Assembly: GCF_018308945.1 (NCBI RefSeq)
Contig: NZ_CP070501.1
Coordinates: 930,001 to 994,000 of the forward strand
Length of the DNA stretch: 64,000 nt
Source of the DNA: Agrococcus sp. Marseille-Q4369
Lineage (GTDB): Bacteria; Actinomycetota; Actinomycetes; Actinomycetales; Microbacteriaceae
Direction of reading: 5' to 3'
Shown here: positions 6,587-23,933 of the stretch, in pieces
Layout of the letters: every line of letters starts with the position of its first letter
Position numbering within the stretch: the first letter of the stretch is position 1
Translations under genes and position numbers: made by a program
The notes under the pieces: model-generated
Told to the model about the DNA's origin: nothing
What the model saw: only the letters and a program-made list of their open reading frames with translations
The model's database searches: none

Positions 6587-7698
6587 TGCTGATCGGCGTC
6601 CCGCGCGAGACCAAGACCGACGAGGCGCGCGTCGCGCTCACCGCCACCGGCGCGACCGAGCTCGTCGCGCGCGGCCACGAGGTGCTCGTCGAGACCGGCG
6701 CGGGCGTCGGCAGCGGCATCACCGACGAGGCGTTCGAGGCGGCCGGAGCCCGCATCGTGGCCACGGCCGAGGAGGCATGGAGCGCGCAGCTCGTGCTCAA
6801 GGTCAAGGAGCCGGTCGGTCCCGAGCTCGACCTCCTGCGCGACGACCTGACGCTCTTCGCCTACCTGCACCTCGCGGCGGCACCCGAGCTCGCGCAGGCG
6901 CTGCTCGACCGCGGCACGACCGCGATCGCGTACGAGACGGTGCGCGCGCCCGACGGCTCGCTGCCGATGCTCGCGCCGATGAGCGAGGTCGCCGGCCGCC
7001 TCTCGGTCGTGCAGGGCGCCTCGCTGCTCACCGCGCCGCAGGGCGGGGCCGGGCTGCTGCTCGGCGGCGTGCCGGGCACCCGCGCGGGCCACACGGTCGT
7101 GCTCGGCGGCGGCGTCGCCGGGACCGCGGCGGTCGAGATGGCCGTCGGGCTCGGCTCGCGCGTCACGGTGCTCGACGTCTCGCTCCCGCGGCTGCGCCAG
7201 TTCGACACCGTCTACGGCGGCCGCGTGCAGACGCTGCACTCGAACCGCGTGACCGTCGACGAGGCCGTCGTCGACGCCGACCTCGTGATCGGCTCGGTGC
7301 TCATCCCGGGCGCGAAGGCGCCCAAGCTCGTCACGAGCGAGATGGTCGAGCGGATGCGTCCCGGCTCCGTGCTCGTCGACATCGCGATCGACCAGGGCGG
7401 CTGCTTCGCCGACTCGCGGCCGACGACGCACGGCGACCCGACGTTCGACGTGCACGGCACCCTGTTCGCGTGCGTCGCGAACCTCCCCGGCGCCGTGCCG
7501 CGCACCTCGACCGAGGCGCTCACGAACGCGACGCTCGCCGCGACGCTGAAGCTCGCGGACCTCGGCTGGCGCGACGCGCTGCGGGCCGACGCGGGGCTCG
7601 CGGCTGGCCTCAACACGACCGGCGGGCGGGTCGCGCACGAGGGCGTCGCCTCGGCGCTCGGGCTTCAGTCCGCATCGGTGGCGTCGCTGCTCGGGTAG
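6586..7698 (+). CDS. ald: Alanine dehydrogenase
   Basis: NAD-dependent interconversion of L-alanine with pyruvate and ammonia, 370 residues. Diagnostic segments are [17 protein letters not shown] at the N-terminus with substrate-binding Arg, [10 protein letters not shown] with the conserved Lys, FAYLHLAA (catalytic His), the Rossmann loop [15 protein letters not shown], and [12 protein letters not shown] 6586 overlaps the gabT stop by one base; GTG 6583 is directly in front of it in frame. The last 34 bases overlap the convergent FtsK-like gene. Together with gabT it forms a small amino-nitrogen module. Confidence 0.96.
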
Positions 7699-10367
7699 CG
7701 CAACCTCGCGAAGCGCCCGTCCTGGAGCAGCCAGGCGGGCGCTTCGCGCATCGGCGGCGCGGGCGGCGCGTGCCGCAGCACCTGCCGCAGCGCCCGCTCG
7801 TCGACCCCGAGCACGACGACCGGCCGCTCGGCGCGCAGCCGGTCGAGCTCGCCCCACGCCGCCTCCCACTCGGCGACGGAGCCGACGACCGCGGTCGCGC
7901 TCGTGCCGGGCGCGGGTCGCGGTGCGCCGCCGAGCGCGAGCGGGAGCTCGACCCCCGCGCCGCGCACGACCGCGATCGGACCGATCGGCATCGGCACCCA
8001 CGCCGGTTCGCGCCGCGGCGCGGGCGCATCGGGCAGCGCGAGCTGGACGCGCTCGTCGGCGAGCCACCCGGCACCCGGCGGCAGGCTCGCGTCGTGCAGG
8101 GCGCCAGCACCGCCCGCGACGATGTGCTCCTGGCGGCTCGCGATGCGCAGCAGCACGCGCGTCTCTGCGAGGGCGGCGACCTGGCTCATCGCGCTCGAGA
8201 TGCGCCGCGCGGTGAGCGCGACCGCGCCGCCCTCGCGCATGCGGCGAAGCAGCAGCTGCACGGCGATAGCCTGCTGCGCCTCGCCAAGCCGAGCGAGCTG
8301 CAGGTCGAGGTCGTCGACGACGAGCGCGCCGTACCCTCCAGGCGCTGCGCCCTCCTCGAGCGCATCCCACAGCGCGTCCTCGCGGTCGACGACGGCGGCT
8401 CCGAGCTGGCCCGCGACGAGGTCGGCGAGACTCGAGCGGCCGCTGCCAGCACCGCCGATCGCGAGCAGGGGCCCGTCGGTCGCGGGGCGCCACCGCACGG
8501 GATCGATGGCCTGCCGCGCGGGCCGGTCGACGAGACCGAGCCGCACGCCGCCCCCTGCGCGATCGCCGCGCGCGTCCGCGCCGTCGAGCGGCACGGCAGC
8601 GAGCCGCACGCGGGCCGGCAGCGGCTCGCGCCACGGCCGCGGCGGCCTCGCCATCGTCGCGGAGGCCGCGACGAGCCGCTCCAGGAGCGCGGGCGACGCG
8701 AGGGCGGCTTGCGCGAGCCGGGTCGCCCCGCCGCTCACGCGCACGACGCAGCGGCCGCGCGCCTCGAGCGGGATCGCCGCCGCCTCCGGGCTCCCGGTCA
8801 CCGCGACGGCGTCGGCCTCGGAGGTCACGCGCAGCGAGATGCGGATGCCGCAGTTGGCGAGCAGCGCGTCGCGCACCGCGTCGGCGGGCCGCTGGGTGCA
8901 CAGCACGACGTGCACGCCGAGCGAGCGGCCGCGCGCCGCGAGGTCGACGAAGAGCCGGTGCAGGTCGGGCAGCTCGTCGAGCATCGCGGCGAACTCGTCG
9001 ACGACGATGACGAGCCGCGGCAGTCCCGTCGCCTCCTCGATCGAGCGCGCGCCCCGTTCGGCGAGGGCTCGCTCGCGCCGCCGGAGCTCTGCTCGGAGGC
9101 TCTCGATCGCGCGCCGCGCGCCCGCCTCGTCGAGGTCGGTCATGACGCCGACGACGTGCGCGAGCGCGTGCAGCGCGGCGAACGACGCACCGCCCTTGAA
9201 GTCGACGAGCAGGAACGACACGTCCTCGGTCGAGCGGCCCGCCGCCATCGCCGCGACCCATGCGACGAGCAGCTCGCTCTTGCCGGCGCCGGTCGTGCCG
9301 CCCACGACGGCGTGCGGCCCGTCGCGCACCAGGTCGAGCGGCATCGGGGTGTCGGCGACGAGGAACACCGCCTCGAGTCCGCCCTCCCCCGGTGGCAGCG
9401 CGTCGAGCTCGACGCGGCCGGGCAGCCCGCTCGCGCGGCGGAGCCCAGCGTGCTCGGCGGCGAGCGCGAGCGTGCGAGCGACGCTCGCGGCCTCCCTCGC
9501 GCTGAGCGCCGTCGGCACGACCTCTCGGCCTGCGAGCCGCGCGGCGTCGAGCGCGGCGCGCACGACGACCCGGCACTCGCGCGGCAGGAGCGCCGGCGCC
9601 GACGCGATGGCGAGCGTGACGTCGACGTCGTCGCCGACGACGCGCACGTGGTGGCCGGGCTCGCGGTGCACGGGGTGCGGGACGGGCGCGAGCCAGTCCC
9701 AGGCCTCGTCGTCGGGCGCGATCACCTCCGCCTCGTCGGGCGCGACGGCGTCGAGCACCTGCACGAGCGCCGCGCGGGCGAGCGCGATCGCGATGGCGGG
9801 CGGGCCGACGAAGCCGATCCCCTCGCGCGCGTCGACCGTCACGGGCCCCTCGACGACCGATGCTGCCGAGCGCAGCCGCGCCGCCTCCTCGGCCGCGCCC
9901 AGCCGCAGCGCGGCGGGGTCGGCCGCCGGGACGACACCCTCGACGACGATCCCCGAGGGCAGCGCGCCGACGCCCAGCACGATGTCGAGCGGTGCCCCGC
10001 GCTCGCGCCGCCAGCGGTGCGGGTCGTGCGGCGGGCGCGCGGCGATCCGGCGGGCGTCGGGATGCGCGACCTCGAGCTCGCGCCGCCGCTCCGCGACCGC
10101 GCGGTCGATGCGCTCAGCGGCATCGGCGACCTCCGCTCGCCAGCGCGCCGCCTCGCGGCGAGTCCGCGCCCTGCGCACGCGCCGGCCGTCGCCGAGGCTC
10201 GCGAGCGCGATCACCGGTCCGAGGAGCGCGAGCACGAGCACCGTCGGCGTCTGCAGCAGCAGCCACATCGCGATCGCACCGAGCACCGGCGCGAGGCTCG
10301 CGAGCAGCGGGAACGACGCGGGCTCCGGCTCGACGGGCGGGCGCGGGAGGTCGATGCGCGTCTCCAT
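7665..10367 (-). CDS. FtsK/SpoIIIE ATPase resembling type VII secretion EccC
   Basis: About 900 residues. Two membrane helices near the N-terminus (residues about 18-55) and a roughly 180-residue linker precede two ATPase domains, the layout of EccC motors. Domain 1 has an intact Walker A (GGTTGAGKSELL), the FKGG signature (LVDFKGGASF) and Walker B (LVIVVDEFAAM). Domain 2 has GGAGSGRSS, where the Walker A Lys is Arg, and ALVVDDLDL. I chose ATG 10367 because the helices begin shortly after it. It is the last gene of the kinase/Ig-protein operon and ends inside the convergent ald gene by 34 bases. No EccB, EccD, EccE, MycP or WXG100 gene is in the window, so a classical ESX role is not supported. 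Confidence 0.85.
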   Translation of the reverse strand: METRIDLPRPPVEPEPASFPLLASLAPVLGAIAMWLLLQTPTVLVLALLGPVIALASLGDGRRVRRARTRREAARWRAEVADAAERIDRAVAERRRELEVAHPDARRIAARPPHDPHRWRRERGAPLDIVLGVGALPSGIVVEGVVPAADPAALRLGAAEEAARLRSAASVVEGPVTVDAREGIGFVGPPAIAIALARAALVQVLDAVAPDEAEVIAPDDEAWDWLAPVPHPVHREPGHHVRVVGDDVDVTLAIASAPALLPRECRVVVRAALDAARLAGREVVPTALSAREAASVARTLALAAEHAGLRRASGLPGRVELDALPPGEGGLEAVFLVADTPMPLDLVRDGPHAVVGGTTGAGKSELLVAWVAAMAAGRSTEDVSFLLVDFKGGASFAALHALAHVVGVMTDLDEAGARRAIESLRAELRRRERALAERGARSIEEATGLPRLVIVVDEFAAMLDELPDLHRLFVDLAARGRSLGVHVVLCTQRPADAVRDALLANCGIRISLRVTSEADAVAVTGSPEAAAIPLEARGRCVVRVSGGATRLAQAALASPALLERLVAASATMARPPRPWREPLPARVRLAAVPLDGADARGDRAGGGVRLGLVDRPARQAIDPVRWRPATDGPLLAIGGAGSGRSSLADLVAGQLGAAVVDREDALWDALEEGAAPGGYGALVVDDLDLQLARLGEAQQAIAVQLLLRRMREGGAVALTARRISSAMSQVAALAETRVLLRIASRQEHIVAGGAGALHDASLPPGAGWLADERVQLALPDAPAPRREPAWVPMPIGPIAVVRGAGVELPLALGGAPRPAPGTSATAVVGSVAEWEAAWGELDRLRAERPVVVLGVDERALRQVLRHAPPAPPMREAPAWLLQDGRFARLRYPSSDATDAD

Positions 10368-10437
10368 GGCGGCAGGGTGCCGCTCGAGCGCGGCACCGCG
10401 CAGCGCCACGGCGCGGGGCTGTGGAGACGGCTCCCGG

Positions 10438-12591
10438 CTACCGCTTCGCGAGCGATGCGGGGTTCAGGCGCGCGAGCACCGACCGCAGCCGCCCCTCCCC
10501 CTCGTCGCGGCGCTCGAGCACCGCGTCGCTCAGCGCCCAGGCGGCGTCGATCTCGGGCTCGGTCGGGGGCCTCGGCGCGAACACCGCGCGGTCCACGCGG
10601 TGCGCGAGCTCGCGCATCCGCTCGTCCTCGCCGGCTTGCTCGACCCGCGTGCCGCCCTCCGGCGCCGCGTCGCCGCGGTCGCGGAGGCCGTCGACGACCT
10701 CCGCCCACGCGCCCTCGGCGCGGTCGCGCGGCTCGTCCGCGCGACGGCGGCGCCTGCGGCGCACGACCTTCGCGACCACGAGCCCGACCGGCAGCGCGGC
10801 GACGAGCGCGAGCAGTCCCAGCACCGCCGCGGCTGCGCCGAGCGCCGCGAGCAGCCTCGAGGTGCCGTCCTCGCTGCGCTCCGGCGCGTTCGGCGCCGCG
10901 GCGTCGGCGCCCTGGCGCTGCCCGCCGGGCGCGGGCGCGGGCGCCTGCTGCGCGGGCGGCTGCTCGACGATCGCCGGCGCGCCCTGCTCCTGCTCGGGGA
11001 TCGGGCGCGGCGCGGGCGAGACGTCGATGCTGACCCAGCCCGCCGACGTGCGCACCTCGATCCACGCATCCGCATCGGCGCCGACGACCGCGGTCGGGAG
11101 CCCCGGCTCGATCGCATCGGGAGTGAAGCCCACCACGACGCGCGCGTCGAAGCCGAGCTGGCGCGCGAGCAGCATCGCCGCCGTGGAGTACTGCTCGGCG
11201 TCGCCGATCATGGGCTCGGTGAAGAGCTCGATGAGCCGCTCGCGCGAGTGGCCGGGGCGAGAGGGCGCCTCGTCGTCGAGCACGCCGTGGCTGATGTAGC
11301 CGCTCGCGCGCATGCCGTCGACCATCGCCTGGAGGCGCGCGCCGGGCGTCTCGGCGTCGCCCGTCCAGGCGGCGAGCGCGGTGAGCATCTCCTCCGGCAG
11401 CTCGATCGCGGCCCGCCCGGGGTCGGCGGGCACGAGCTCCTGCACCTGCTCGGGCGGGACGATCGGCGCGCCCTGCTCGACCTGCATCTGGAAGCCGTCG
11501 CCCGGCCGGAGCCCCGCCTCGACGATGAGGGTGCGGAGGCCGCGGTCGCGGTGCAGCGTCGAGCCGAGCTGCTCGGCGCGCTCGCCGACGAACCGCACGC
11601 CGGTGGGCACGCCGACGGTGGGCAGCCACGCGCTCGAGAGCTCGTCGATCGTGATGCCGACGAGCCGGCCGCTGCCCTCCTCGGCGCTCGCGACGCGCTC
11701 GAAGCCGGCGCGCTCGACGGTGAGCACCTTCCCGTCGTAGCCGTCGAGGGCGGCGATGCGGATGCGGTCCCCCGGCACGAGGCCCGTGGCGGTGAGCTGA
11801 CGGGCACCGCGCCGGTCCTCGGCCCAGAACGAGCGGTAGGAGGCCATCGGCGAGGCGCCCGCCAGCTCGACGGACGACGTGCTGCCGCCGCGCAGCACGA
11901 CGCGCTCCGGGAGCTCGACGAGCGCGCCCGCCGTGCCGGCCGCGATCGCGGCGACGACCGCGACGGCGACGCCCGCGCCGACGCGGCGCGCGAGCGACGA
12001 GAGCGCGCGCGGCGCGCGGCTGCGCCGCCTCGCTTGCCGCACGACCGTGATGTAGGCGCCGATCGGCACGAGCGCGATCATGCCGAGCAGCCACGGGACG
12101 GGCATCGCGAGCGGGCCCCAGAGGATCGACCACACGCCGATGAGCGCGGGCACGAGCGCGGCCGACTCGGCCGAGCGCGAGCGCAGCGCGATCCACACGC
12201 CGATGAGCGTGCCGAAGAGCACGAGCAGCACGGGCGCGATGAGCAGCGCGTCGCTCGTGCCGACGGGCAGCCCGATCGTCAGCAGCCGCCGCCACGACAG
12301 CACGGCCGCGGCCGCGGCGTCGACGAGCCCCTCGCCCCACTCGCCGCGCCCGATGCGCTGCGGGGCGGTGAGCGGCACGGCGAGCACGGCGAGCGCGGCG
12401 AGCGCGACGAGCAGCATCGAGAGCGAGCCCCAGCGGCGCACCGCCCCGAGGACGCCGATGCCGGCGCCGACGAGCAGCGAGACCGAGACGGCGACGACGA
12501 GCTGCAGGGTGCCGAAGATCCACCACATCGGCACGCACGCGGCCGCGATCGCGAGCATGAGCAGGCCGACGCTCGGCGCGCGGCGGATCAC
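10438..12591 (-). CDS. TgpA-like membrane transglutaminase-fold protein, catalytic residues missing
   Basis: About 717 residues. The N-terminal half has six or more membrane helices (to about residue 225), followed by an extracellular domain with a transglutaminase-like core at about 405-530, a Pro/Gln/Ala linker, one more helix (about 560-585) and an Arg-rich cytosolic tail. The active-site position of TgpA-type enzymes reads GDAEQYS, with Ala (about residue 465) where Cys is expected. The HAW motif reads DAW (about residue 508). Only the third triad residue, Asp in SIDVSP, is kept, so the domain is probably a binding module. The GTG start at 12591 overlaps the DUF58 stop (GTGA). Confidence 0.85.
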   Translation of the reverse strand: MIRRAPSVGLLMLAIAAACVPMWWIFGTLQLVVAVSVSLLVGAGIGVLGAVRRWGSLSMLLVALAALAVLAVPLTAPQRIGRGEWGEGLVDAAAAAVLSWRRLLTIGLPVGTSDALLIAPVLLVLFGTLIGVWIALRSRSAESAALVPALIGVWSILWGPLAMPVPWLLGMIALVPIGAYITVVRQARRRSRAPRALSSLARRVGAGVAVAVVAAIAAGTAGALVELPERVVLRGGSTSSVELAGASPMASYRSFWAEDRRGARQLTATGLVPGDRIRIAALDGYDGKVLTVERAGFERVASAEEGSGRLVGITIDELSSAWLPTVGVPTGVRFVGERAEQLGSTLHRDRGLRTLIVEAGLRPGDGFQMQVEQGAPIVPPEQVQELVPADPGRAAIELPEEMLTALAAWTGDAETPGARLQAMVDGMRASGYISHGVLDDEAPSRPGHSRERLIELFTEPMIGDAEQYSTAAMLLARQLGFDARVVVGFTPDAIEPGLPTAVVGADADAWIEVRTSAGWVSIDVSPAPRPIPEQEQGAPAIVEQPPAQQAPAPAPGGQRQGADAAAPNAPERSEDGTSRLLAALGAAAAVLGLLALVAALPVGLVVAKVVRRRRRRRADEPRDRAEGAWAEVVDGLRDRGDAAPEGGTRVEQAGEDERMRELAHRVDRAVFAPRPPTEPEIDAAWALSDAVLERRDEGEGRLRSVLARLNPASLAKR

Positions 12592-13766
12592 GCGCGCCCC
12601 GCGTCGCCGATGCCGCGCGAGAGGTCCTCGATCGCGCCGACGGTCGCGACGTCGGCGTCGCCGAGGCGCGCCCTCGTCGGCACCGCCCCGACCGCGGCGC
12701 GCACGACGACCGAGACGACGCCCTCCGGCATGCCGTTCGCCGCGGTGCGGAGCTCGCGCGGCGGCACGGTCGAGCCGGTCACGAGCCACGCGACGCTGCC
12801 GCGCGCCGTGCTGCGCGCCGCGCGCGCCGTGGCCGCGATGCCGACGCCGCTGCGCGCCTCGAGCACCGCGAGCGCGTCGAGCAGCCGGTCGCGCGTGACC
12901 GCGTCGATCGGCCGCACCGGGCCGCGCTCCGCTCGCGGGCTCTCGACGATGCGCAGCGAGCGGCGGTCGGCGATCGCGGCGAGGCCGAGGGTGCCGACGA
13001 TCGAGAGGGCGAGCTCGAAGTCGTCGCCGTCGTACTCGCGCGGGTCGGTCGAGAGCACGATGAGCGTGTCGGCGCGCCGCGCCGGCTCGAACTGCCGCAC
13101 GAGCAACGAGCCGTGGCGAGCGCTCGAGCGCCAGTGCACGAGCCGCCGGTCGTCGCCCGGCGCGTACTCGCGCAAGCTGTGGAACGAGACGTCGTCGGCC
13201 GTGCGCTCGGCGGCCGCCTCCCCGTCGAGGTCGCGCACGATGCCGCCCGCGCCGCCGGGCAGCCGCACGACGCGCGGGTGCACGACGAGCGTGCGCGTCT
13301 CGGTGAGCCGGTGGCGCCGCTCGAGCACGCCGAACGGATCGGTGCGCATGATCGTCGCGGGCCCGATCGTGCGCAGCCCGCGACGGCTCGTGTCGAGCGG
13401 CACCGAGCGCAGCACCTTGCCGCCCACGGCGAGCGACGGGATCTCGAGCACCGCCTCCTCGTCGCCGATGTCGAGGTCGATCTGGCGCGGCGTCGCGGCG
13501 CGCGTGGGGCGCGAGACCTCGATGAGCGCGAGCGCGTCGGCGCCGACCGGCACGCGCTCGGCGCTCAGGCCGATGCGGGCGCGCGCCCAGCGCTCGCCGA
13601 CGATCCACGGGATCGCGCCGAGCAGCAGGGTCGCGGCGGCGACGGCCGCGACGAGCGCCTCCGCCCAGCCGAGCGAGCGGGCGAGGAAGACGCCGAGCGC
13701 GACGACCGCGAGCAGCGCCCAGCCCCACGGGGTGATGGCGCGCAGGGCGGCGTCGAGCCAGCGCAT
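12588..13766 (-). CDS. DUF58 domain protein
   Basis: A 392-residue protein with two N-terminal membrane helices (about residues 14-55), then a beta-rich region and the DUF58 core. The family signature is visible as REYAPGDDRRLVHWRSSARHGSLLVRQFEP. DUF58 proteins normally pair with MoxR ATPases, often with a vWA-like fold, and are thought to act in assembly or maturation of envelope complexes; the exact job is unknown. The MoxR gene ends two bases upstream of ATG 13766, and the stop overlaps the next gene by four bases, so the MoxR-DUF58-TgpA trio is tightly coupled. Confidence 0.92.
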   Translation of the reverse strand: MRWLDAALRAITPWGWALLAVVALGVFLARSLGWAEALVAAVAAATLLLGAIPWIVGERWARARIGLSAERVPVGADALALIEVSRPTRAATPRQIDLDIGDEEAVLEIPSLAVGGKVLRSVPLDTSRRGLRTIGPATIMRTDPFGVLERRHRLTETRTLVVHPRVVRLPGGAGGIVRDLDGEAAAERTADDVSFHSLREYAPGDDRRLVHWRSSARHGSLLVRQFEPARRADTLIVLSTDPREYDGDDFELALSIVGTLGLAAIADRRSLRIVESPRAERGPVRPIDAVTRDRLLDALAVLEARSGVGIAATARAARSTARGSVAWLVTGSTVPPRELRTAANGMPEGVVSVVVRAAVGAVPTRARLGDADVATVGAIEDLSRGIGDAGRA

Positions 13767-13768
13767 CG

Positions 13769-14761
13769 TCAGCGCCTGGGCGGCGCCACGGTGAGCATGA
13801 GCTGCTGCACGATGCTCTCGGGCCGGACGTCGTCGAACTCCGCCTCCGGCTGCAGCACGAGGCGGTGCGCGAGCGCCGGCACGGCGAGCGCCTTCACGTC
13901 GTCGGGCGTGACGTAGTCGCGGCCGTGGATCGCGGCCCACGCGCGGGCCGTCCGCACGAGCGCGAGCGCGCCGCGCACCGAGACGCCCAGCCGCACCTCG
14001 TCGGCCTCGCGCGTCGCGTCGACGAGCCGCGCGACGTAGTCGACGATCGACGCCTCGACGTGCACGCCGCGCACCTGGCGCGCGAGCGCCTGCATGAGCC
14101 GCACGTCGGCGACCGGCTCGATCCCCTCGGGCGAGAGCTCGTCGCCCGAGTCGGCGAGGATGCGCAGCGTCGAGGCGTGGTCGGGGTAGCCGATCGACGC
14201 CTTGAGCGCGAAGCGGTCGAGCTGCGCCTCGGGCAGCTGGTAGGTGCCCGCGTGCTCGACCGGGTTCTGCGTCGCGATCACCATGAACGGCTGCGGCACG
14301 GGGTGCGCGATCCCGTCGACCGTGACGCGCCCCTCCTGCATGACCTCGAGCAGCGCCGACTGCGTCTTCGGGCTCGCGCGGTTGATCTCGTCGGCGAGCA
14401 CGATGTTCGCGAACACCGGACCGGGACGGTACTCGAACTCCCCGGAACCCTGGCTCCACACGCTCACGCCCGTGATGTCGCCCGGCAGCAGGTCGGGTGT
14501 GAACTGGATGCGGTTCGAGGTCCCGGAGATCGCGGTCGCGAGCGCGCGAGCGAGCGACGTCTTGCCGGTGCCGGGGTTGTCCTCGATCAGCAGGTGCCCG
14601 TTGCTCAGCATCGCGGTGAGCGAGAGCTGCACGACGTGCGGCTTGCCGACGAGCACGCGCTCGACCTGCTCGACGACCCGCTCGGCGAGCTCCTGGATGG
14701 TCGAGACGTCGACGTCCGCGTCGATCGTCCTCGCGTCCGCCCCCGCCGTCGCGTCCACCAC
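13769..14761 (-). CDS. MoxR-family AAA+ ATPase
   Basis: A cytosolic AAA+ chaperone-like ATPase of about 330 residues. Walker A is EDNPGTGKTSLA, Walker B is NIVLADEINRASPKTQ, and sensor 1 is VIATQNPVEHAGTYQLPEAQLDRF, the standard MoxR set. MoxR proteins remodel or activate client complexes, usually with a DUF58 or vWA partner such as the gene immediately downstream. Three starts are possible: ATG 14794, GTG 14785 (GTGA overlap with the Ig-like gene) and GTG 14761. I chose 14761 because AGGGAGGAG sits six bases before it. The Walker A region has Asn where family members often have Val (DNPGTGKT). Confidence 0.93.
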   Translation of the reverse strand: MVDATAGADARTIDADVDVSTIQELAERVVEQVERVLVGKPHVVQLSLTAMLSNGHLLIEDNPGTGKTSLARALATAISGTSNRIQFTPDLLPGDITGVSVWSQGSGEFEYRPGPVFANIVLADEINRASPKTQSALLEVMQEGRVTVDGIAHPVPQPFMVIATQNPVEHAGTYQLPEAQLDRFALKASIGYPDHASTLRILADSGDELSPEGIEPVADVRLMQALARQVRGVHVEASIVDYVARLVDATREADEVRLGVSVRGALALVRTARAWAAIHGRDYVTPDDVKALAVPALAHRLVLQPEAEFDDVRPESIVQQLMLTVAPPRR

Positions 14762-14781
14762 AGTGGGCTCCTCCCTGCCGG

Positions 14782-17700
14782 TCACAGCCCGCATCCCGCC
14801 TCGGTCGGCGATGGATCCCTGTGAGGCCCGGACTCCAGATAGGTTACTTGGCCCCATGCCTGCACTCGCGTCGCCCCGGCGGGCACAGCCTGGGTCGCCG
14901 GCCGCTCGCTCGTCCACGAGCCGCCGACGAGGTAGCGCGCGAAGACCTCGTCCTGCGCGAGCGGCGTCACGTTGCCCTCGACGCTCGCCTCGAGCGGCAC
15001 GAGCGGGCGGCACGCCTCGATCGTCGCGCGGAGCCGCAGCGGCACGACCTGACCGACGCGCGTCACCGCCGAGCAGACGCCCTGGGTCGCGCCGGGGGCG
15101 CACGCGCGCACCTCGACGCCGACCTGCTCCCCGTACTGGAACGCGGCGCTCGAGGGCGTCAGCCACGAGCCGGCTTGCGCTCGCTGCCACGGACCGCCCG
15201 CGACGCGCGCCTCGAGCCACGTGCCGCTCGTGAGCGTCGGCGCGCGGTCGAGGCGCGCGTCGAGGGCGTCCTCGCGCACCTCGGTGACGACGGCGACGGC
15301 GGATGCGTCCACGGGCGCGGGCGTGCCGAACACCGGGTCCGAGACCGAGACCGAGCAGTGCCAGCCGTTGTCGGCGGTGACGGCGACGACGGCGCGCGCA
15401 CCCTGGGCGACGGGCAGGGTCGCGCTGAGCGCGGCGCTCCCCGCGGGGGTGCCGCCGCCCGAGCTGGCGCACGACTGCGACTCTCCGGGCGAGAGCACCC
15501 GCGCCGAGTAGCGCACGCTGGCGGCGCCCGCGCGGTCGACCTCCGCCCAGGTCACGGTGACGCTCCCGCCGTCGTGTCCCGTCACGAGCACGGGAGCGGT
15601 GCCGGGCACCCCGACGGCCGTGAACGGCACGGGTGCTGCCGGCCAGCGCCAGGCGGCATCGGGCACGCCGGCGCGGTTCGCGGCCGCGACCTCGATCGAG
15701 TAGGCGCGGCCCGGCGTGAGCCCCGCGATGACGCTCTGGCGCTCGGCGGCACCGACGCGCACGAGCTGGTCGAGGCCCGAGCCCGAGACGCGCACGAGGT
15801 ACGCCTCGATCGGGGTGCCGCCGGGCGGCTGCGGCACGCCCTGCCACACGACGCGCATCGAGCCCGGTGTGCTCGCGGGCATCGCCTGCACGCCGGGCAC
15901 GACCGCGGGCAGCCGGTCGGCGTGCACGGGCTCCGAGGGCTCGGACGGGCGGCTGTCGCCGACCGCGTTCGTCGCGATCGCCTGCAGCCGCAGGTCGACG
16001 CCGGCCGGCAGTCCCTCGATGCGGCAGCGGGGCGTCGGCCCGCACGCGACGTCGATGCCGCTCGCGACGTTGACGACGCGGTAGCCGGTGATGGGGCTGC
16101 CGTTGCTCGCGGGCGGCTCGATCGACATCATCACGACCCCGTCGACGTGCTCGTCGAACGCCTGCACTGGCGGGGCCGGCGCGTCCGGCACGTCCTGCAC
16201 CGTCACGGTGATCGGGCTCCACACCCCGCGCTCGGGCACGCCGGCGGCATCGAGCACGAGCACCTGCACGATCGTCGTGCCGATCGCCGCGGTGGACGAC
16301 GCCGCGATGCGCACCGTCGTGCCGTCGACGACCGCGGTGATGCCGCGCTGCTCGGCGCCCGTCACTCGCAGGCCGCCGATCCGCAGCGGCGTCGCGGGGA
16401 ACGGATTGGATGCCTCGTCGTCGACGAGCGGCTGCACCTCGGCGCTCGTGCCGCGCCGCACGGTCACGGCGTCGGGCTCGGGCGCGACGAGCGGGGCGGT
16501 CGTCGAGATCACCGCGAGCGAGACGGTGCCGGGCACGCCCTCGCCCGCCGCGTCGCGCACGCCGATGCGCAGCTCCGCGCGCGTGCCGCGGTCGGTGCGG
16601 TCGAGCGCCCGCACCGTGAGCGTCGAGCCCTCGATCCTGGCCTGGAAGCCGGCTGGCACCTCGTCGAGGATCGACCACGACGCGCCCGCGATCCGCGCCG
16701 GGTCGGGCGCCCGCGTGACCCGTGCGAGGTCGATCGAGCGCTCGGTGCCGGGCTCGAGCTGCACGAAGGAGCCGAGCACCGTGAGCGGCACCCCGTCGCC
16801 GGGCAGCACTTCGATCGGCAGCACGATCGTGCCGATCCGCCCCTCGGGATCGGTGGGGCTGTCGCCGTCGGTGACCTCGAACGTGATGCTCGCCGGCCCG
16901 AAGTACCCCGGCTCGGGCACGAACCGCAGCGTCTTCTCGTCGATCACCGGGTTCGAGCCGTCCGTCGGCGCCGCGCGCACGGCGCTCGCGTCGGTCAGCA
17001 TCGCCCCCTCGCCGTCGACGGTGTCGACGACGTCGTCGATCGCGATCTCGAGCGTCTCGCCCGCGCGCGCCGCGAGCGGCGCGACGCCGGGCTTGAGCTG
17101 CGGCAGCGCGTCGAGGCGGCCGGGCACCGCGATGACGGCCGTCGCGCTCGCGCCGCCTGCGTCGTCGCGCTCGACCGCGAACGGCACGAATCGCGTGCGG
17201 TCGCCGATGGGGATCTCGATGGTGCCGTCGTCGCGGAGCGTCACGCCCTCGGCGGGCAGCGGGAGGCTCGCGCGCAGCACATCGGTGCGGCCGTCGCGCA
17301 CCGTCGCCTGCGCGAGCGGGTCGATGCGCACCGCCTCCGCCGACGCGATCGACTGGATGGGCACCTGCACGTCGGTGACGTCGGGCGCGGGCGGCGGCGC
17401 GTCGGGGTCGACGTCGATGCGCAGCCAGCTCGCGGCAGCGGTGCCGGCGGAGTTCTCGACCGTGACGACGATGCCGAGGTCGGATGCGTCGGGCGCGGCG
17501 GAGACGAGCACGGCACCGTCGCGGATGGACGCGGTCGCGCCCGGCGAGGCGGTGTCGACGTCGACGATCTCGAGCGGCAGCCCCGCGGGGTCGCGGTCGT
17601 TGTCGAGCACCGGCACGACGAGCGTCGAGTCTGGCCGCATGGCAGCGGAGTCGGCGCCCAGGACGGGCGGCAGCGCGGGCCCCGGCTCGACGACGATGAC

Positions 17701-20472
17701 CCGCACGACGCCCTCACCGGTCGCGCCGAGGTCGTCGGTGATGCGGTAGCGGAACTCGTCGGTGCCGCGCGAGTAGTCCCCCGCCTGGTAGCGGAGCGTC
17801 GAGCGCCCGAGCTGCGTGACGAAGCCGCGCGTCGGCGCGGTCGAGGGGCCGAGCAGCTGCACGGGATCGCCGTTCGGGTCGGCGTTCGAGAGCGGCAGCG
17901 CGAGGTCGACGCTCGCGCCCGCGACGACGCGCGCCTCGATTGCCGGCGCGGTGGGCGCCGCATTGGTCGTGCGCGCCGCCGCGGCGACCTGCATCGTGAT
18001 GCCGGCCGTCGACGACTGGCCGTCCGGTCCGCGCACGGCGTAGGTCGCCGTGAACGTGCCAGGCTCGTCGGGCGCGACGAACCGCATCCGGTCGCCGTCG
18101 ACGAACAGCAGGCCGGCCTCAGGCGGCGCGACGATCGCGGGATCGAGCTCGAGCGCGAGCCCGTCGGGCTGCTCGTCGTTGACGAGCACCGGGATGTCGA
18201 CGAGCCCGCCGGGGCGCACGGTCACCTCGTCGTCGCGCGCGATGGGCGCCTGCACCGACGCCGTGCCGGTCGACGAGACGCGCAGCTCGCCCTCGGCGCT
18301 CTGCACGCCGTTCGTGACGGTGTAGCGCACGCTCGCCTGCTGCGCGAGCTCGTCGGTGAGCGTGAGCCGCAGCTGCTCGGCATCGACGACCTCCGCGCGC
18401 ACGGCGGTGTCGTCGCTCGCGGCGTTCAGGAGCGCGACGACGCCGCCGGAGGGGTCGAGCGCGAGGTCGTCGACGTCGAGCTCGACCGTGCCGAGCGCCG
18501 GGAGCGCCGCGCGCGCCGGCATCGTGATGGGCGGGCTCGACGCGTCGGCGGCCTCGAGCACCCGCACGACGACGCGCCCCTCCTGCGTCGCGGTGCCGTC
18601 GGTGACGACGTAGGAGAAGCGCATGAGCCCCGCGTCGGTCGGCTGCACCCGGATGGTGCCGTCGGCGAAGCTCGGCTCGACGGGGTAGTTCGGTGCGACG
18701 ACGTTGTGGAGGCTCAGCTCGCCCGCGCCGCCCTGGGCCGCGAGCAGAGGCTCGAGCACGAGCTGCTGCCCCACGCGCGTGACGGCCGTGACGGGCTGCG
18801 CCGAGATCGGCACCGCGCCGGCGTGCACGGTGAGCACGATCTCCTCGGTCGCCTCCGCTTGCCCGTCGGTGACCGTGACGAGCACCCGGCGCTCGGTGCC
18901 CGTACCGCCGTCGGTGAACTCCAGCCGGCCATCGGCGCGCACGCTCACGCGGTCTGGGGCGGCGGCCTCGGCGCTGACGAGCGCGAGCGCGTCGCCCTCG
19001 GGGTCGACCCAGCCGTCGAGCGCGTCGAGGGCGATGGTCCTGCCGGCCTCGAGCGTCGCGCGCACGGGGCGCTCGAGCACGGGCGGCTCGTTGCCCTCGC
19101 GCAGCGCCACGGTCGCGACCGCCCGATCGCTCTCGGCGCCGTCCGAGATGCGGTAGTCGATGCGGGTGGGCCCGGCCGCGGGCGCCTCGAAGCGGATGCC
19201 GCGCCCGTCGGGGGTGATGGCGGCGGATGCGTCGGCCCGGTCGAGCTCGACGCTGGTGATGAGGATGGGGTCGCCGTTCGCGTCGCTGTCGTTGAGCAGC
19301 ACGGGCAGCACCGTCACCTCGCCCGGGCGCGCGCCGAGCTCGTCGTCCTGCGCGACGGGCGGCTCGGGCGCCGCCTCGACGGCCTCCTCGACGGCCTCGT
19401 CGTCGATCGGCGCCTCGGGCGCGGGCTCGTCGTCCTCGAGCTGCCAGCCCGTGATGCGGCGGCCGTCGCGGTCGATCGACCACGCGTCGCCCGAGCCGAC
19501 GTCGGTGACCGCCGTCGCGCTCCCGCGCTGCAGGATCCGCAGGCTCGCGTCGATCGGCACGCCTTGCAGCGAGAGGACGACGGGCTCCTCCCCCTCGCAC
19601 GAGCGCCAGCCGGTGCCGCCCTGCCAGGCCGCGTACGCGCATCCGTCGCTCACGACCGGCCTCGCCGGCTCGCCGCTCGCGCCCGACGCGAGGGTCGTCG
19701 CGGCCGGCACGCCGAGCTGCTGCCGCACGAGGGCTGTGTCGGTCGCGTAGAGCACGGCGGATGCGCTCGGTCCGGGCTCCTGGAGGCGCACGCCGGTCTC
19801 GTCGAGGGCGCGCTGCCACGAGCTCGTCGAGAGCACGCCCGAGCCGGCGTCGTAGAGCACCCACTCGTCGCCGAGCGCCGTGAGCTGCAGCTCGGGCGCG
19901 GCGGGCGAGACGGGGGCGCGCTCGCTCGAGACGGTCTCTCCCGCGTCATCGACGCGCAGCACCCGGCCGAGGCCCGGTGACGCGGCGAGCAGGCTCTCCT
20001 CGCCGAGCACGGCGACGCCGCCGCGGCCGAGCGCCACGACGGGTTCGTCGAGCGGCGTGCCCTCCGCGATCGCGCCGGTCGTCGTGCGCCACACGTCGCC
20101 GGTCGCGGGCGACGTGATGACGACGCGGTCGTCGCGCGCGGCGACGGCGGCCCCCGCGACGATCGGCACCGCCGGGCCGGCCTGCGCCTCCCCCTCGCGC
20201 ACGACGCGCACGGTGGATGCGCTGCGGTCGACGACGACGGTGCCCGACGGCGTCTGCAGCGCCTCGTGGACGCCGCCGACCTGGACGGTGCGCTCGATCG
20301 TGCTGTTCGCGGTGTTGGCGAGCCCGATCGCGCCGGCGCTCGAGTTCGCGATCCACACGCTCGAGCCGTCGAGCTCGGGCTCGAGCGCCTGGTAGCCGGG
20401 GGCGACGACGGCGCCGACGACGATCCCCGCGGTGAGGAGTCCGCCGAGGACGAGGCCGGCCCGCGCCCTCAC
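14782..20472 (-). CDS. Giant Ig-like/fibronectin type III surface protein
   Basis: A 1,896-residue protein, the largest gene in the window. A signal-anchor helix lies at about residues 5-27. Residues about 30-370 look beta-propeller-like (repeated V-x-D-x-A-G-x-V pieces). From about 370 to 1425 come roughly eleven Ig-like/cadherin-like repeats, several with the hallmark RPG-(9-10)-PVLxND-xD (for example VLLNDSDANGDPI, VLVNDEQPDG, VLDNDRDPAG). Three or so FN3 domains follow at about 1425-1720 (SPITGYRVV, TPIEAYLVRVSG). The last 170 residues contain scattered Cys. GTG 20472 overlaps the kinase stop (GTGA). Its position between a kinase and a MoxR module suggests a cell-surface structure whose assembly is phospho-regulated. 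Binding partners are unknown. Confidence 0.85.
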   Translation of the reverse strand: MRARAGLVLGGLLTAGIVVGAVVAPGYQALEPELDGSSVWIANSSAGAIGLANTANSTIERTVQVGGVHEALQTPSGTVVVDRSASTVRVVREGEAQAGPAVPIVAGAAVAARDDRVVITSPATGDVWRTTTGAIAEGTPLDEPVVALGRGGVAVLGEESLLAASPGLGRVLRVDDAGETVSSERAPVSPAAPELQLTALGDEWVLYDAGSGVLSTSSWQRALDETGVRLQEPGPSASAVLYATDTALVRQQLGVPAATTLASGASGEPARPVVSDGCAYAAWQGGTGWRSCEGEEPVVLSLQGVPIDASLRILQRGSATAVTDVGSGDAWSIDRDGRRITGWQLEDDEPAPEAPIDDEAVEEAVEAAPEPPVAQDDELGARPGEVTVLPVLLNDSDANGDPILITSVELDRADASAAITPDGRGIRFEAPAAGPTRIDYRISDGAESDRAVATVALREGNEPPVLERPVRATLEAGRTIALDALDGWVDPEGDALALVSAEAAAPDRVSVRADGRLEFTDGGTGTERRVLVTVTDGQAEATEEIVLTVHAGAVPISAQPVTAVTRVGQQLVLEPLLAAQGGAGELSLHNVVAPNYPVEPSFADGTIRVQPTDAGLMRFSYVVTDGTATQEGRVVVRVLEAADASSPPITMPARAALPALGTVELDVDDLALDPSGGVVALLNAASDDTAVRAEVVDAEQLRLTLTDELAQQASVRYTVTNGVQSAEGELRVSSTGTASVQAPIARDDEVTVRPGGLVDIPVLVNDEQPDGLALELDPAIVAPPEAGLLFVDGDRMRFVAPDEPGTFTATYAVRGPDGQSSTAGITMQVAAAARTTNAAPTAPAIEARVVAGASVDLALPLSNADPNGDPVQLLGPSTAPTRGFVTQLGRSTLRYQAGDYSRGTDEFRYRITDDLGATGEGVVRVIVVEPGPALPPVLGADSAAMRPDSTLVVPVLDNDRDPAGLPLEIVDVDTASPGATASIRDGAVLVSAAPDASDLGIVVTVENSAGTAAASWLRIDVDPDAPPPAPDVTDVQVPIQSIASAEAVRIDPLAQATVRDGRTDVLRASLPLPAEGVTLRDDGTIEIPIGDRTRFVPFAVERDDAGGASATAVIAVPGRLDALPQLKPGVAPLAARAGETLEIAIDDVVDTVDGEGAMLTDASAVRAAPTDGSNPVIDEKTLRFVPEPGYFGPASITFEVTDGDSPTDPEGRIGTIVLPIEVLPGDGVPLTVLGSFVQLEPGTERSIDLARVTRAPDPARIAGASWSILDEVPAGFQARIEGSTLTVRALDRTDRGTRAELRIGVRDAAGEGVPGTVSLAVISTTAPLVAPEPDAVTVRRGTSAEVQPLVDDEASNPFPATPLRIGGLRVTGAEQRGITAVVDGTTVRIAASSTAAIGTTIVQVLVLDAAGVPERGVWSPITVTVQDVPDAPAPPVQAFDEHVDGVVMMSIEPPASNGSPITGYRVVNVASGIDVACGPTPRCRIEGLPAGVDLRLQAIATNAVGDSRPSEPSEPVHADRLPAVVPGVQAMPASTPGSMRVVWQGVPQPPGGTPIEAYLVRVSGSGLDQLVRVGAAERQSVIAGLTPGRAYSIEVAAANRAGVPDAAWRWPAAPVPFTAVGVPGTAPVLVTGHDGGSVTVTWAEVDRAGAASVRYSARVLSPGESQSCASSGGGTPAGSAALSATLPVAQGARAVVAVTADNGWHCSVSVSDPVFGTPAPVDASAVAVVTEVREDALDARLDRAPTLTSGTWLEARVAGGPWQRAQAGSWLTPSSAAFQYGEQVGVEVRACAPGATQGVCSAVTRVGQVVPLRLRATIEACRPLVPLEASVEGNVTPLAQDEVFARYLVGGSWTSERPATQAVPAGATRVQAWGQVTYLESGPHRDPSPTEAGCGL

Positions 20473-21830
20473 GGCAGCGGCTCTCCGCAGGCCTCGGTCG
20501 GCTCCCCGGTCGAGCCGTCGCGGTTGACGGCGACCCAGATGCACAGCTGCTCGCCAGCCGCGCCCGTGAGGGTGAACTCGCGGCCGCCCTGGATGACCGC
20601 ATCCCCCGTCGAGGTGCGCACGTGGAAGGTGTCGGTGTCGACGAGGCCCGGGTCCTCCCAGCCGAACACGACCCGGCCCTCCGCGGGGCTCACTGCGATC
20701 TCCTGCACGACCGGGATCTGCGACGAGACGCTCGAGAGCGCGAACGCCGCGACGGTGATGAGCCCGAGCACGACGACGGTCGCGGCGGCGATGCCGAGGC
20801 CGATCGCGAAGCGCTTCGGCTTCGGCGGCTGGCGACGGCCCGTCGACTGCGAGATGTCGACGCGGCTGCCCGTGATGCCGGGAGCGCGACGCGACCTGCG
20901 CTGGCGCAGCCGCAGCGCATCCGAGTCCTCCTCGACCTCGTCGCCGTCGACGATGGGCTCGGCGGCCCACGCGTCGACCTCGACCTCGATGGGCGTGACG
21001 TCGAAGCCGAGCTCGCGCTGCACGCGCTGCAGCTCACCCAACAGCTCCTCGACGCTCCCGTGACGATCGCCGGGCCTCGCCGCGAGCGCCTTGTCGAGCA
21101 CGGGGCGCAGCGCCGCGGGGATCGCGCGCGAGGGCAGCAGGTCGTGGGCGATGATGCGGTCGGAGAGCGCGGCGTGGTCGTTCGCCCGGCCCGGCTGCTC
21201 GGCGGGGCTGCGACCCGCGATGAGCGAGAAGAGCGTCGCGGCGAGCGACCACACCTCGGTCGCGATCGTGCCACCGGTCTCGCCGCGCAGCATCTCGGGC
21301 GCCGCCCACGGCACCGAGACGCCCGCGGCCTCGCTCGCGTCGTGCTGGAGGCCGGCGATCCCGAAGTCGCTCAGCACCGGGTGCCCGAACGAGGTCGTGA
21401 GGATGTTGGCTGGCTTGATGTCGCGGTGCAGCACGCCGGCCCGATGCGCGGTCTCGACCGCCGCGCCGATGCGGATCGCGACGCGCAGCGCCGCCTCGGG
21501 CGCGAGCGGGTCGGTGCGGAAGCGCTCGCCGAGCTCGGGGTTCGCGAGCTCCATCACGAGGTAGGGGCGGCCGTCGCTCGCGACCGAGGCGCCGTAGACG
21601 GTGAGGATGCTCGGGTGCGACGAGAGGCGACCCATGAGGTTGACCTCGGTGCGGAACGAGCGGCGCACGTCCTCGTCGACGAGCTCGGCGAGCAGCACCT
21701 TGACCGCGACGGGGCGGCGGGGCAGCGCCTGCTCGTAGAGGAAGACGTCGGCGTACCCGCCCGTGCCGAGCACGTGGAGATGCGAGAAGCCGGGCAGGAC
21801 CGGCGGCGCGGAGGGGAGCCGCCTGGCCAT
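20469..21830 (-). CDS. PknB-type transmembrane Ser/Thr protein kinase
   Basis: A Hanks-type kinase of 453 residues. The catalytic domain (about 15-275) has the Gly loop GTGGYADVF, VAVK (Lys about 44), HRDIKPAN (Asp about 137), DFG (about 155) and PWAAPE. After an acidic and then basic juxtamembrane segment, a single helix lies at about 341-366 (FAIGLGIAAATVVVLGLITV). The outer domain is only about 85 residues and FN3-like, not PASTA, so it is not a standard peptidoglycan-sensing PknB. ATG 21830 shares one base with the phosphatase stop (TGATG). The phosphatase is the natural antagonist; the downstream envelope proteins are plausible substrates, by inference. Confidence 0.94.
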   Translation of the reverse strand: MARRLPSAPPVLPGFSHLHVLGTGGYADVFLYEQALPRRPVAVKVLLAELVDEDVRRSFRTEVNLMGRLSSHPSILTVYGASVASDGRPYLVMELANPELGERFRTDPLAPEAALRVAIRIGAAVETAHRAGVLHRDIKPANILTTSFGHPVLSDFGIAGLQHDASEAAGVSVPWAAPEMLRGETGGTIATEVWSLAATLFSLIAGRSPAEQPGRANDHAALSDRIIAHDLLPSRAIPAALRPVLDKALAARPGDRHGSVEELLGELQRVQRELGFDVTPIEVEVDAWAAEPIVDGDEVEEDSDALRLRQRRSRRAPGITGSRVDISQSTGRRQPPKPKRFAIGLGIAAATVVVLGLITVAAFALSSVSSQIPVVQEIAVSPAEGRVVFGWEDPGLVDTDTFHVRTSTGDAVIQGGREFTLTGAAGEQLCIWVAVNRDGSTGEPTEACGEPLP

Positions 21831-22672
21831 CAGGACCGCCGCGGCTCCTCGTCGCGGAGCGTCGTGCGCGGCACGGTCCGGTCGACGTCGTCGACGCTCG
21901 GCGCGCGCGTGACGTCGATGACGATCACCGAGACGTTGTCGCGCCCCCCGGAGTCGAGCGCCGCGGCGACGAGTGCCTGCGCCGCGGCGGCCGGGTCGTC
22001 GTGCTCCCACAGCAAGCGCTCGATGTCGACGTCGTGCACTTCCTTCGTGAGGCCGTCGGAGCACACGAGCAGGCGCAGCTGCGGCATGATCGGCAGCAGG
22101 AAGTAGTCGGGCACGGGGTCGATGCCGGCGCCGACGCCGCGCGTGACGACGTTCGCCTCCGGGTGCGTCTCGGCCTCCTCCTCGGTGAGCAGGCCCGCGT
22201 CGATGAGCTCCTGCACGACCGAGTGGTCGACGGTGATGCGCGTGAGTCGCTCGCCGAGCATCGCGTAGGTGCGCGAGTCGCCGACGTTGAAGACGGCGAA
22301 GTGGGGCGCGCCCTCGTGCAGCGCGAACGCGCAGCCCGTGACCGTCGTGCCCGCGGAGCCCTCGCCGACGCCGAGCAGCTCGATCGCGTCGGTCGCGCGG
22401 CGGAGCGCGTCGACGACGTCGACCGGTTCGACGGCCGGGAGCTCCCGGAGGTCTGCGAGCTGCTCGACGACCGCCTTGCTCGCGAGGTCGCCGTGCGAGT
22501 GACCGCCCATCCCGTCGGCGACCGCGAAGACCGGCGGCTGCGTGATGAGCGAGTCCTCGTTGTGCTGGCGGCGGAAGCCGGTGTCGGTCATGCCTGCCCA
22601 GCGCACCGCGAACTGCTGGGCCTCTGGCCCCTGGGTTGCGTGCTCGCCGCTCGCCGCTCCGATGTGGGTCAC
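21830..22672 (-). CDS. PP2C-family Ser/Thr protein phosphatase
   Basis: A soluble PPM-type phosphatase of about 280 residues. Metal-binding motifs are present: RRQHNEDS near residue 38, VADGMGGHSHG near 53, CSDGLT and SGGRDNVSVIVID near the C-terminus. It should reverse phosphorylation by the kinase encoded next. It is the first gene of the seven-gene operon. The start is uncertain: GTG 22672 follows a GGAGGA only two bases away, while GTG 22711 and an internal ATG (MTDTGFRRQHNED) are alternatives. No clear promoter hexamer is seen just upstream; the next gene begins 70 bases away. Confidence 0.93.
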   Translation of the reverse strand: MTHIGAASGEHATQGPEAQQFAVRWAGMTDTGFRRQHNEDSLITQPPVFAVADGMGGHSHGDLASKAVVEQLADLRELPAVEPVDVVDALRRATDAIELLGVGEGSAGTTVTGCAFALHEGAPHFAVFNVGDSRTYAMLGERLTRITVDHSVVQELIDAGLLTEEEAETHPEANVVTRGVGAGIDPVPDYFLLPIMPQLRLLVCSDGLTKEVHDVDIERLLWEHDDPAAAAQALVAAALDSGGRDNVSVIVIDVTRAPSVDDVDRTVPRTTLRDEEPRRS

Positions 22673-22742: not shown

Positions 22743-23933
22743 TCACAAGCGGCCCTTGAGGATGCGGTGCCAGTAGATCTGCGGGAGCGCGTGGCGATCG
22801 AGCAGGTACCAGAGCGGGCTCGAGCGGATCTCGCCCCGTGCCGGGATCGGGAGCGAGCGGCGCAGGCTGAGCTCCCGGTCGTACTCGCCGAACGAGAGGC
22901 TGCTGCGCGAGGTGGCGATCGGCGCGACGGTGTAGCCGTCGTAGCGCTCGAGCGGCTCGCCGGCGCGGGCGCGACGGATGTTCTCGACCGCGATCTTCAC
23001 CTGCTCGCGCAAGCCGCCGCCGGTGCGCGCGTCGCCGATGTCGGCGACGTCGCCGATGACCCAGACGCGCGGATGCGCGGGGTGACGGAGCGTCTCGGGG
23101 TCGACGGCGGCGAATCCCCCGGTGCCGTGGGCGTCGAGGCCGGAGGCCCCGATGACGTCGGGCGCGCGGTACGGCGGGTGCAGGTGGACGAGGTCGGCGC
23201 GCTCGGCGATCGTGCCGCGCGGCCCGGCGAGGTCGACCTCGTCGCCGCGCAGGGCGACGACGTGGGTCGCGGGTCGCGCCTCGATGCCGTAGCGGTCGAG
23301 GTGGCGGCGGATCTCCACCGCGATCGCGTCGACGGGGTGCAGCTCGTCGCCGTCGTGCACGAGGATCACCTCGATCGCGTCGAGCACGCCGTTCGCGCGC
23401 CACGTGTCGCACGCGATGAAGAGCGGCTTGAGCGCCGTCTCGCGACCCGAGACCGGCTGCCCGCGCAGCTCGAAGATCGCGCGGCCCGAGGTCAGGCCCG
23501 CGATGCGCTCGCGGGTGCGGGCGAGCTCGGTGTCGACGTAGGTCGTGATGGCGAGGCCGCTCGCGAGCGCCTCCGCCGCGCCGGGCAGCAGGCTCCAGTC
23601 GATGACCGCGCCGGTCGCGATGATGAGGTCGCGCCCACGGACGACGGAGCCGTCGGCGCAGCGCACCTCGCGCCGTGCCGGGTCGATCGCGACCGCCGAT
23701 GTGCGATGCCACTCGACCCCGTCGGGGATGAGCGACGCCTGCGGCCGGGACAGCTCGTCGTCGCTCGCGAGGCCGGTGGCGACGTAGTTCTGCAGCGGCT
23801 TGTAGACGTGCCGCTCGGAGGGCTCGATGAGCCCGACGTCCGGAGAACCGCGCCGCCGCAGGTGCGCGGCTGCCGAGAGTCCGCCGTTGCCCCCACCGAC
23901 CACCAGGACGTCGTGCACTCGCTCTGCCGCCAT
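22743..23933 (-). CDS. SQR-like FAD-dependent oxidoreductase without the catalytic cysteines
   Basis: A 396-residue flavoprotein with the N-terminal dinucleotide fold VLVVGGGNGGLSAAAHL and the second FAD motif VWVIGDVADIGDARTGGG, as in sulfide:quinone reductases. At the positions of the two redox cysteines of SQR this protein has Ser (PVSGRETALKP, about residue 162) and Ala (YDGYTVAPIATS, about 352), so sulfide oxidation is unlikely. A role as an NADH- or quinone-linked dehydrogenase of unknown donor is more probable. ATG 23933 lies six bases after a TAGCGT hexamer. The neighbouring DUF4192 gene ends only nine bases upstream. Confidence 0.85.
   Translation of the reverse strand: MAAERVHDVLVVGGGNGGLSAAAHLRRRGSPDVGLIEPSERHVYKPLQNYVATGLASDDELSRPQASLIPDGVEWHRTSAVAIDPARREVRCADGSVVRGRDLIIATGAVIDWSLLPGAAEALASGLAITTYVDTELARTRERIAGLTSGRAIFELRGQPVSGRETALKPLFIACDTWRANGVLDAIEVILVHDGDELHPVDAIAVEIRRHLDRYGIEARPATHVVALRGDEVDLAGPRGTIAERADLVHLHPPYRAPDVIGASGLDAHGTGGFAAVDPETLRHPAHPRVWVIGDVADIGDARTGGGLREQVKIAVENIRRARAGEPLERYDGYTVAPIATSRSSLSFGEYDRELSLRRSLPIPARGEIRSSPLWYLLDRHALPQIYWHRILKGRL

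Follow-up and report, generated by a model that had tools for sequence, protein, structure and literature searches.

What does an ATPase of the type VII secretion family do in a gene cluster that carries no type VII substrate gene? The question is raised by the window, a stretch of 64,000 nucleotides (G000:C1:930001-994000) of a 2.74-Mb single-contig genome, in which seven consecutive genes lie on the minus strand at positions 7665-22672 (Table). The genes were called from codon usage, ribosome-binding sites and junctions, which bear out the one-strand layout of the original prediction at its coordinates, and the families computed with Pfam and NCBIfam agree with those named in it, including the 1,896-residue Ig/FN3 protein. 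From the phosphatase to the motor gene the spacings are -1, -4, 20, 2, -4 and 70 bases, within the overlaps or gaps of up to 70 bases that had been described; the four GTGA/TGATG junctions counted earlier are, however, three true overlaps (TGATG, GTGA and GTGA) and one 2-base gap. Seventy bases ahead of the PP2C gene, and in the same orientation, lies an oxidoreductase gene (22743-23933); the transcript could therefore start further up. Neither a sigma-70-like promoter nor an intrinsic terminator was found for the cluster, a weak test at such G+C content. The 3' end of the motor gene overlaps that of a convergent alanine dehydrogenase gene by 34 bases (7665-7698). EccB, EccD and MycP were not found among the window genes examined. 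The reading we favour, at a probability of roughly 0.55, is that the cluster provides the membrane-bound and regulatory half of a second, scattered type VII-like system, with the short EccC-like ATPase as its motor and a WXG100 protein encoded at the groEL locus as its likely substrate or partner.

Table. The seven genes of the cluster and the loci related to it (positions are those of the window unless a contig is given)
Feature	Position	Strand	Size	Basis or content
PP2C-type Ser/Thr phosphatase	21830..22672	-	280 aa	PF13672/PF00481
Membrane Ser/Thr kinase	20469..21830	-	453 aa	PF00069, 2e-34
Giant Ig/FN3 surface protein	14782..20472	-	1896 aa	Six Big_9 stretches, two fn3 stretches
MoxR-family AAA+ ATPase	13769..14761	-	330 aa	PF07726, 2e-60
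DUF58 membrane protein	12588..13766	-	392 aa	PF01882; two TM (TM scan)
TgpA-like predicted pseudo-transglutaminase	10438..12591	-	717 aa	TM bundle and transglutaminase fold
Short EccC-like motor	7665..10367	-	900 aa	Pfam, NCBIfam, structure model; two TM
Orphan WXG100	G000:C1:1233810-1234097		96 aa	Beside groEL, about 293 kb from the cluster
T7SSd-like locus, PFNA-type part	G000:C1:1424001-1464000 (L070/L071)			Ig protein (2040 aa), MoxR, DUF58, TgpA-like (predicted pseudo-transglutaminase), RDD protein with weak FHA match
T7SSd-like locus, rest	as above			PP2C, FHA protein, kinase, 246-aa protein without Pfam match, EssC-type ATPase (1530 aa; FHA, three P-loops), WXG100, small protein beside it without WXG100 match
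Motor-whiB-histidine kinase loci				L083, L184, L186, L284, L286-L299; nine families

The PP2C gene starts at a GTG with GGAGG upstream, and its NCBIfam Stp1-type match lies below that model's cut-off. Read by eye, the motifs of a PP2C phosphatase (VADGMGGH, GDSR and GGRDN) and of a kinase (VAVK, HRDIKPAN with its HRD, and DFG) are intact, and the kinase has a transmembrane segment at residues 347-365 followed by a short ectodomain (TM scan). At what we take to be the catalytic positions of the TgpA-like protein, Cys is replaced by Ala465 and His by Asp508, with Asp523 kept. Alignment counts find the catalytic Cys in 0 of 58 readable homologues and the His missing in all 39 of those linked to a short motor. 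The fold is common to TgpA of Pseudomonas aeruginosa (PDB 6g49/6g4h), which has a Cys-His-Asp triad where the window protein has Ala/Asp/Asp. Judged on these residues, the window 'transglutaminase' is a non-catalytic TgpA fold.

The Ig/FN3 protein begins with a predicted transmembrane or signal segment (residues 5-23) and has a weaker hydrophobic stretch at residues 1389-1407; neither LPxTG nor a C-terminal hydrophobic stretch was found in it. Pfam assigns no domain to some 320 of its residues (about 40-360), where by eye a beta-propeller is suspected. The protein resembles TsdI of T7SSd, although the C-terminal transmembrane helix reported for TsdI is not seen here. A wall-spanning role as conduit, anchor or adhesin has been proposed for TsdI (PMC11217815), and by analogy the window protein may insert through its own N-terminal segment and span the wall in one of these roles.

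The motor comprises a TM pair, a stalk with ATPase0, an intact ATPase1, a degenerate ATPase2 whose P-loop reads GSGRS (K to R) and a remnant C-terminus, with neither an FHA match nor a third P-loop detected; with the alternative start, a GTG at 10409, it would be 14 aa longer. Among the best 80 short-motor loci the ATPase1 P-loop is kept in 80 and a third canonical P-loop occurs in none, and the closest named relative among the matches listed is the motor of Agrococcus pavilionensis (88% identity), on which ground the family of the window genome (f1 in the survey) is taken to be Microbacteriaceae. Its sequence and structure model place the motor in the EccC/EssC family, closer to EccC/EssC than to FtsK. 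According to the model, it would share the TM pair, stalk, ATPase0 and ATPase1 fold of ESX EccC (PDB 4nh0, 6umm, 7b9f), which has a third ATPase domain where the motor has a remnant only, in addition to the K-to-R change in ATPase2. In mycobacteria ATPase3 is described as the EsxB-binding domain (PMC6954902); with this domain reduced to a remnant, substrate recognition would therefore need another site. In a tree of ATPase1 domains the short motors group together (99/96), away from a clade (100/99) of full-length cluster-linked ATPases that we label TsdC; by this tree the short motor represents an EccC lineage of its own, reduced in length. Descent as a decayed T7SSd ATPase was considered and rejected, as the motor sits in a different clade.

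No WXG100 substrate had been seen with the cluster. This holds for the window, within whose 64 kb a PF06013 search gave zero matches, but not for the genome, which has three (at 1.23, 1.43 and 1.72 Mb), one of them tracking the short motor. That gene, the orphan beside groEL, was examined in 14 genomes, its own and 13 others. In all 14 the same two genes precede it (response regulator and histidine kinase in the window genome), and a convergent groEL follows in 13. Residues W43, G45, Y83, E87, N90 and F94 are invariant in the 14 proteins, whose C-terminal end is conserved and all of which carry YxxxE; a Yxxx[D/E] motif is reported to be required in mycobacterial substrates (PMC6954902). We then surveyed 60 Microbacteriaceae genomes, nearly all of different genera, scoring a match of at least 282 bits as a clear short motor; in these genomes a profile of the 14 proteins parts the ortholog (at least 79.6 bits) from other matches (at most 55.4). 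Each of the 31 genomes with a clear motor has at least one WXG100 match, and in the 12 genomes where both share a contig the distance between motor and WXG100 gene is never below 58 kb. With the likely partner encoded so far from the motor, surveys confined to gene neighbourhoods would overlook the pairing.

The groEL-locus ortholog is present in 41 of the 60 genomes: in all 39 that bear a motor (31 clear and 8 divergent, the latter classed after their WXG100 matches were known) against 2 of the 21 others (Fisher's exact P 1e-13, relatedness ignored). A divergent motor is here a weaker match on an open frame of less than 1200 aa, and was assigned to G207, G186, G178, G160, G204, G194, G158 and G175, with a frame of 318 aa in G158. 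For the clear motors alone the computed counts are 31/31 against 10/29 (Fisher's exact P 1e-8, again ignoring relatedness). The 19 genomes without the WXG100 gene gave no motor match of either class; the gene occurs without a detected motor in G161 (99% complete) and G187 (83% complete). Full-length EccC-type ATPases have no positive association with it (22/40 vs 19/20). From this co-occurrence we infer that the short motor secretes the WXG100 protein.

The same pattern could arise if the two genes, functionally unconnected, had merely been kept by the same lineages and the motor served, for example, in DNA or wall-related transport. The two genes are unlinked, and WXG100 is common throughout the order, its profile matching 125 of 149 genomes at E<=1e-15. 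Well-supported independent comparisons are also few: a quick single-gene rpoB tree of 57 genomes (G170 and G192 gave no match and G186 was fragmentary) has 4 independent pairs on well-supported branches, of which a mean of 2.5 agree, 0 are opposed and 1.5 show no difference, and 4 pairs are too few for a paired test. The best rpoB tree nevertheless needs 11 changes for the motor and 9 for the WXG100 gene, and despite these changes the association stays one-way, with 0 of 39 motors lacking WXG100. Considering also that the full-length ATPases show no such association, and that the motor is nearer to EccC/EssC than to FtsK, we regard mere shared retention as improbable.

The conserved linkage for which the original prediction suggested a search is observed, and is not chance, among the best 80 short-motor loci from named genomes, which belong to Microbacteriaceae genera or unclassified actinobacteria. 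In 39 of them the TgpA-like gene is upstream of the motor, the 10-kb flank then excluding the PP2C and kinase genes, in 38 it is PP2C without a TgpA-like gene, and 3 are contig ends; an FHA-type match lies near the motor in 43. Among the 31 clear-motor genomes of the family survey, a PFNA-type MoxR (at least 340 bits) is found no more than 10 kb from the motor in 21 and not within that distance in 10, two of these motors being on short contigs. G164 keeps motor, PP2C, FHA and WXG100, with MoxR matches no better than 313 bits. The small genomes G178, G158, G175 and G186 have a divergent motor and the WXG100 gene; no MoxR match at E<=1e-60 was found in them and the other PFNA queries were unmatched in the flanks taken, the motor stretch of G186, a draft in 420 contigs, being only 6.4 kb long. 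Since motor and WXG100 are kept where the PFNA MoxR is not, the pair is likely to be the core of the system and the PFNA genes an added module.

These observations bear on the model of the original prediction, which does without a WXG100 protein and has the motor export the Ig-like protein or build it into an envelope structure. The model is supported in part. Export of the Ig protein by the motor is not supported and is unlikely: the Ig protein has an N-terminal TM or signal segment of its own, 38 of the best 80 motors stand behind PP2C with no Tgm gene in the upstream flank, and the small genomes just described keep motor and WXG100 with no PFNA-type MoxR match. In its favour are the 39 loci with a Tgm-type cluster, the 21 genomes with a nearby PFNA MoxR, the lack of a WXG100 gene in the cluster and the loss of the ATPase3 substrate domain. 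Among the small genomes of the family, G207 and G160 (1.4-1.6 Mb; L210, L211) keep an Ig-MoxR-DUF58-Tgm-motor cluster, a notable share of a reduced genome.

The window genome has a second PFNA-type set, together with a T7SSd-like locus, at 1.42-1.46 Mb, next to two genes that we take, from their sequences, to be rpoB and rpoC. The original prediction had named as the case against it an ESX locus elsewhere that uses the window ATPase; what we find is a locus with a 1530-aa EssC-type ATPase and a WXG100 of its own, and therefore with no need of the window motor. That the short motor might be an accessory or regulatory subunit of this T7SSd-like system would fit the fact that the window genome has both, as have 21 of the 31 motor-bearing family genomes, and that the two have a kinase/phosphatase/Ig/MoxR set in common. 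We find this hardly credible, as in 10 of the 31 the short motor is the only EccC/EssC-type match at E<=1e-20 and is accompanied by exactly one WXG100 match (three of these ten, G170, G192 and G202, are 87-90% complete drafts); a role tied only to T7SSd was rejected on the strength of these genomes. In a MoxR+DUF58 tree of 55 rows, a branch supported at 100/99 splits the window set from its T7SSd-linked counterpart in this genome; the window side (39 rows) also includes two unlinked sets, as well as one with a full ATPase linked to it. This split points to an old duplication as the source of the two PFNA-type sets.

With PFNA-type genes fused to it, the T7SSd-like locus goes beyond the set of genes so far described for T7SSd. 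In its ATPase, the first 100 residues, which precede the FHA domain (L070:11325-11624, minus strand), appear beta-grasp-like by eye, and a ubiquitin-like domain is suspected there; T7SSd is reported to have no ubiquitin-like protein (PMC11217815). At about 1.72 Mb (L073, 6867-9918) lies a WXG100 that is 100% identical over 95 aa to the T7SSd-linked one, along with a WXG-like partner and proteins of 429 and 201 aa weakly similar to products of the T7SSd-like locus; this looks like a separate substrate island.

Beyond the family, we considered 23 EccC-like motors from other families, chosen as seemingly unlinked to T7SSd. Eighteen of these, from nine families, adjoin whiB and histidine kinase genes (WhiB and PdtaS by Pfam in G105), one is beside the kinase alone and four are beside neither, one of the four (G015) grouping with T7SSd ATPases. 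We know of no function for an EccC-like ATPase beside whiB and a histidine kinase. All 23 genomes have WXG100, against a background rate that is already 84%. WXG100 occurs without an EccC-level motor match in G032 (none) and G012 (1e-8), both fragmented assemblies. Among 20 listed of the 24 order genomes without WXG100, six have no EccC-level motor match (G002, G081, G095, G109 and G123 at E 6e-10 to 8e-9, G053 with no match), and eight others belong to one family (f12), at least five of them with full-length ATPases. One may tentatively suggest, at somewhat short of even odds, that a type VII system of ancient origin, with dispersed genes for an EccC-like motor and the groEL-locus WXG100, is present in the Actinomycetales and has not been seen by locus-based surveys. 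According to this suggestion, the motor would often sit at a motor-whiB-pdtaS locus outside the Microbacteriaceae; within them it would have been shortened and moved into the PP2C/PFNA cluster, some small genomes keeping detectably little more than motor and WXG100.

Returning to the scattered type VII-like system that we favour for the window, a working order for its parts can be proposed. The short EccC-like ATPase would act as the motor that pushes the groEL-locus WXG100 protein, perhaps together with a partner. The kinase and the PP2C phosphatase may set the activity state of the motor complex; FHA proteins adjoin the motor in many relatives, with none beside it in the window. MoxR and DUF58 could form an assembly pair that folds or assembles the Ig protein and the scaffold with its non-catalytic TgpA fold. 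Gene identities, the architecture and lineage of the motor, the lost catalytic residues, the conserved linkage and the co-occurrence with the WXG100 gene are computed results; export, phosphorylation control and the assembly role, like the conduit role of the Ig protein, are drawn by analogy from T7SS and MoxR biology. If this reading is true, a type VII motor can work with fewer ATPase domains and with its substrate gene unlinked, the orphan WXG100 gene found across a bacterial order is explained, and the inactive transglutaminase, like MoxR, DUF58 and the giant Ig protein, finds its place in one setting next to type VII motors. A genome that has a single motor and a single WXG100 gene would offer a small system for the question of the minimal type VII machine. 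The surprise lies in the dispersed motor-WXG100 pair, which can be tested directly.

Two described systems invite comparison. The PFNA operon of Bifidobacterium has the order pkb2-fn3-aaa-atp-duf58-tgm, with a prpC phosphatase in some species (PMC8430577, PMC6803598). The window cluster matches its five core genes in order and on one strand and also has the prpC counterpart, which is sixth in the PFNA operon and first here. The tgm product is called a transglutaminase-like enzyme in a review (PMC8430577), whereas that of the window lacks the catalytic Cys. The B. longum operon is reported to be co-transcribed, and its FN3 protein is said to bind TNF-alpha and to serve adhesion (PMC8430577). 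This report and the shared gene order would suit an ordinary PFNA surface sensing or adhesion operon to which the motor gene is an incidental neighbour. Such an explanation seems very unlikely, given that EccC-type ATPases repeatedly adjoin PFNA genes, short ones in the Microbacteriaceae and full-length ones in eight further families of the order, and that these ATPases belong to two separate lineages. The eight-family sample consists of ten genomes picked non-randomly from listings, the genes lying in one stretch with varying completeness and, in G105, on different contigs.

The main texts of the two PFNA papers (PMC8430577, PMC6803598) make no mention of FtsK, nor does that of PMC6803598 mention EccC or that of PMC8430577 'type VII'; MoxR, DUF58 and transglutaminase are absent from the main text on T7SSd by Garrett, Higginson and Palmer 2024 (PMC11217815). 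The two literatures, on PFNA surface signalling and on T7SS diversity, are separate, and the favoured reading, if true, would join them. A search of titles and abstract openings of open-licence papers gave nothing on the short motor or on a link between it and the groEL-locus WXG100. The components that define T7SSd are a WXG100 protein, an EssC-type ATPase with FHA, a membrane kinase, TsdH and TsdI, the giant Ig-like protein (PMC11217815). Like the window cluster, T7SSd is actinobacterial and has an EccC/EssC-family ATPase, a membrane Ser/Thr kinase (TsdD) and a giant Ig-like protein (TsdI). In T7SSd, however, the WXG100 gene (TsdA) is in the cluster, whereas the window cluster has no linked one, and TsdC has an N-terminal FHA and four NTPase domains, whereas the window motor has neither the FHA nor a third P-loop, and the tree places it apart from the clade formed by its own genome's T7SSd-like ATPase and kin. 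Common to both motor systems of this genome are the MoxR, DUF58 and TgpA-like genes that adjoin them.
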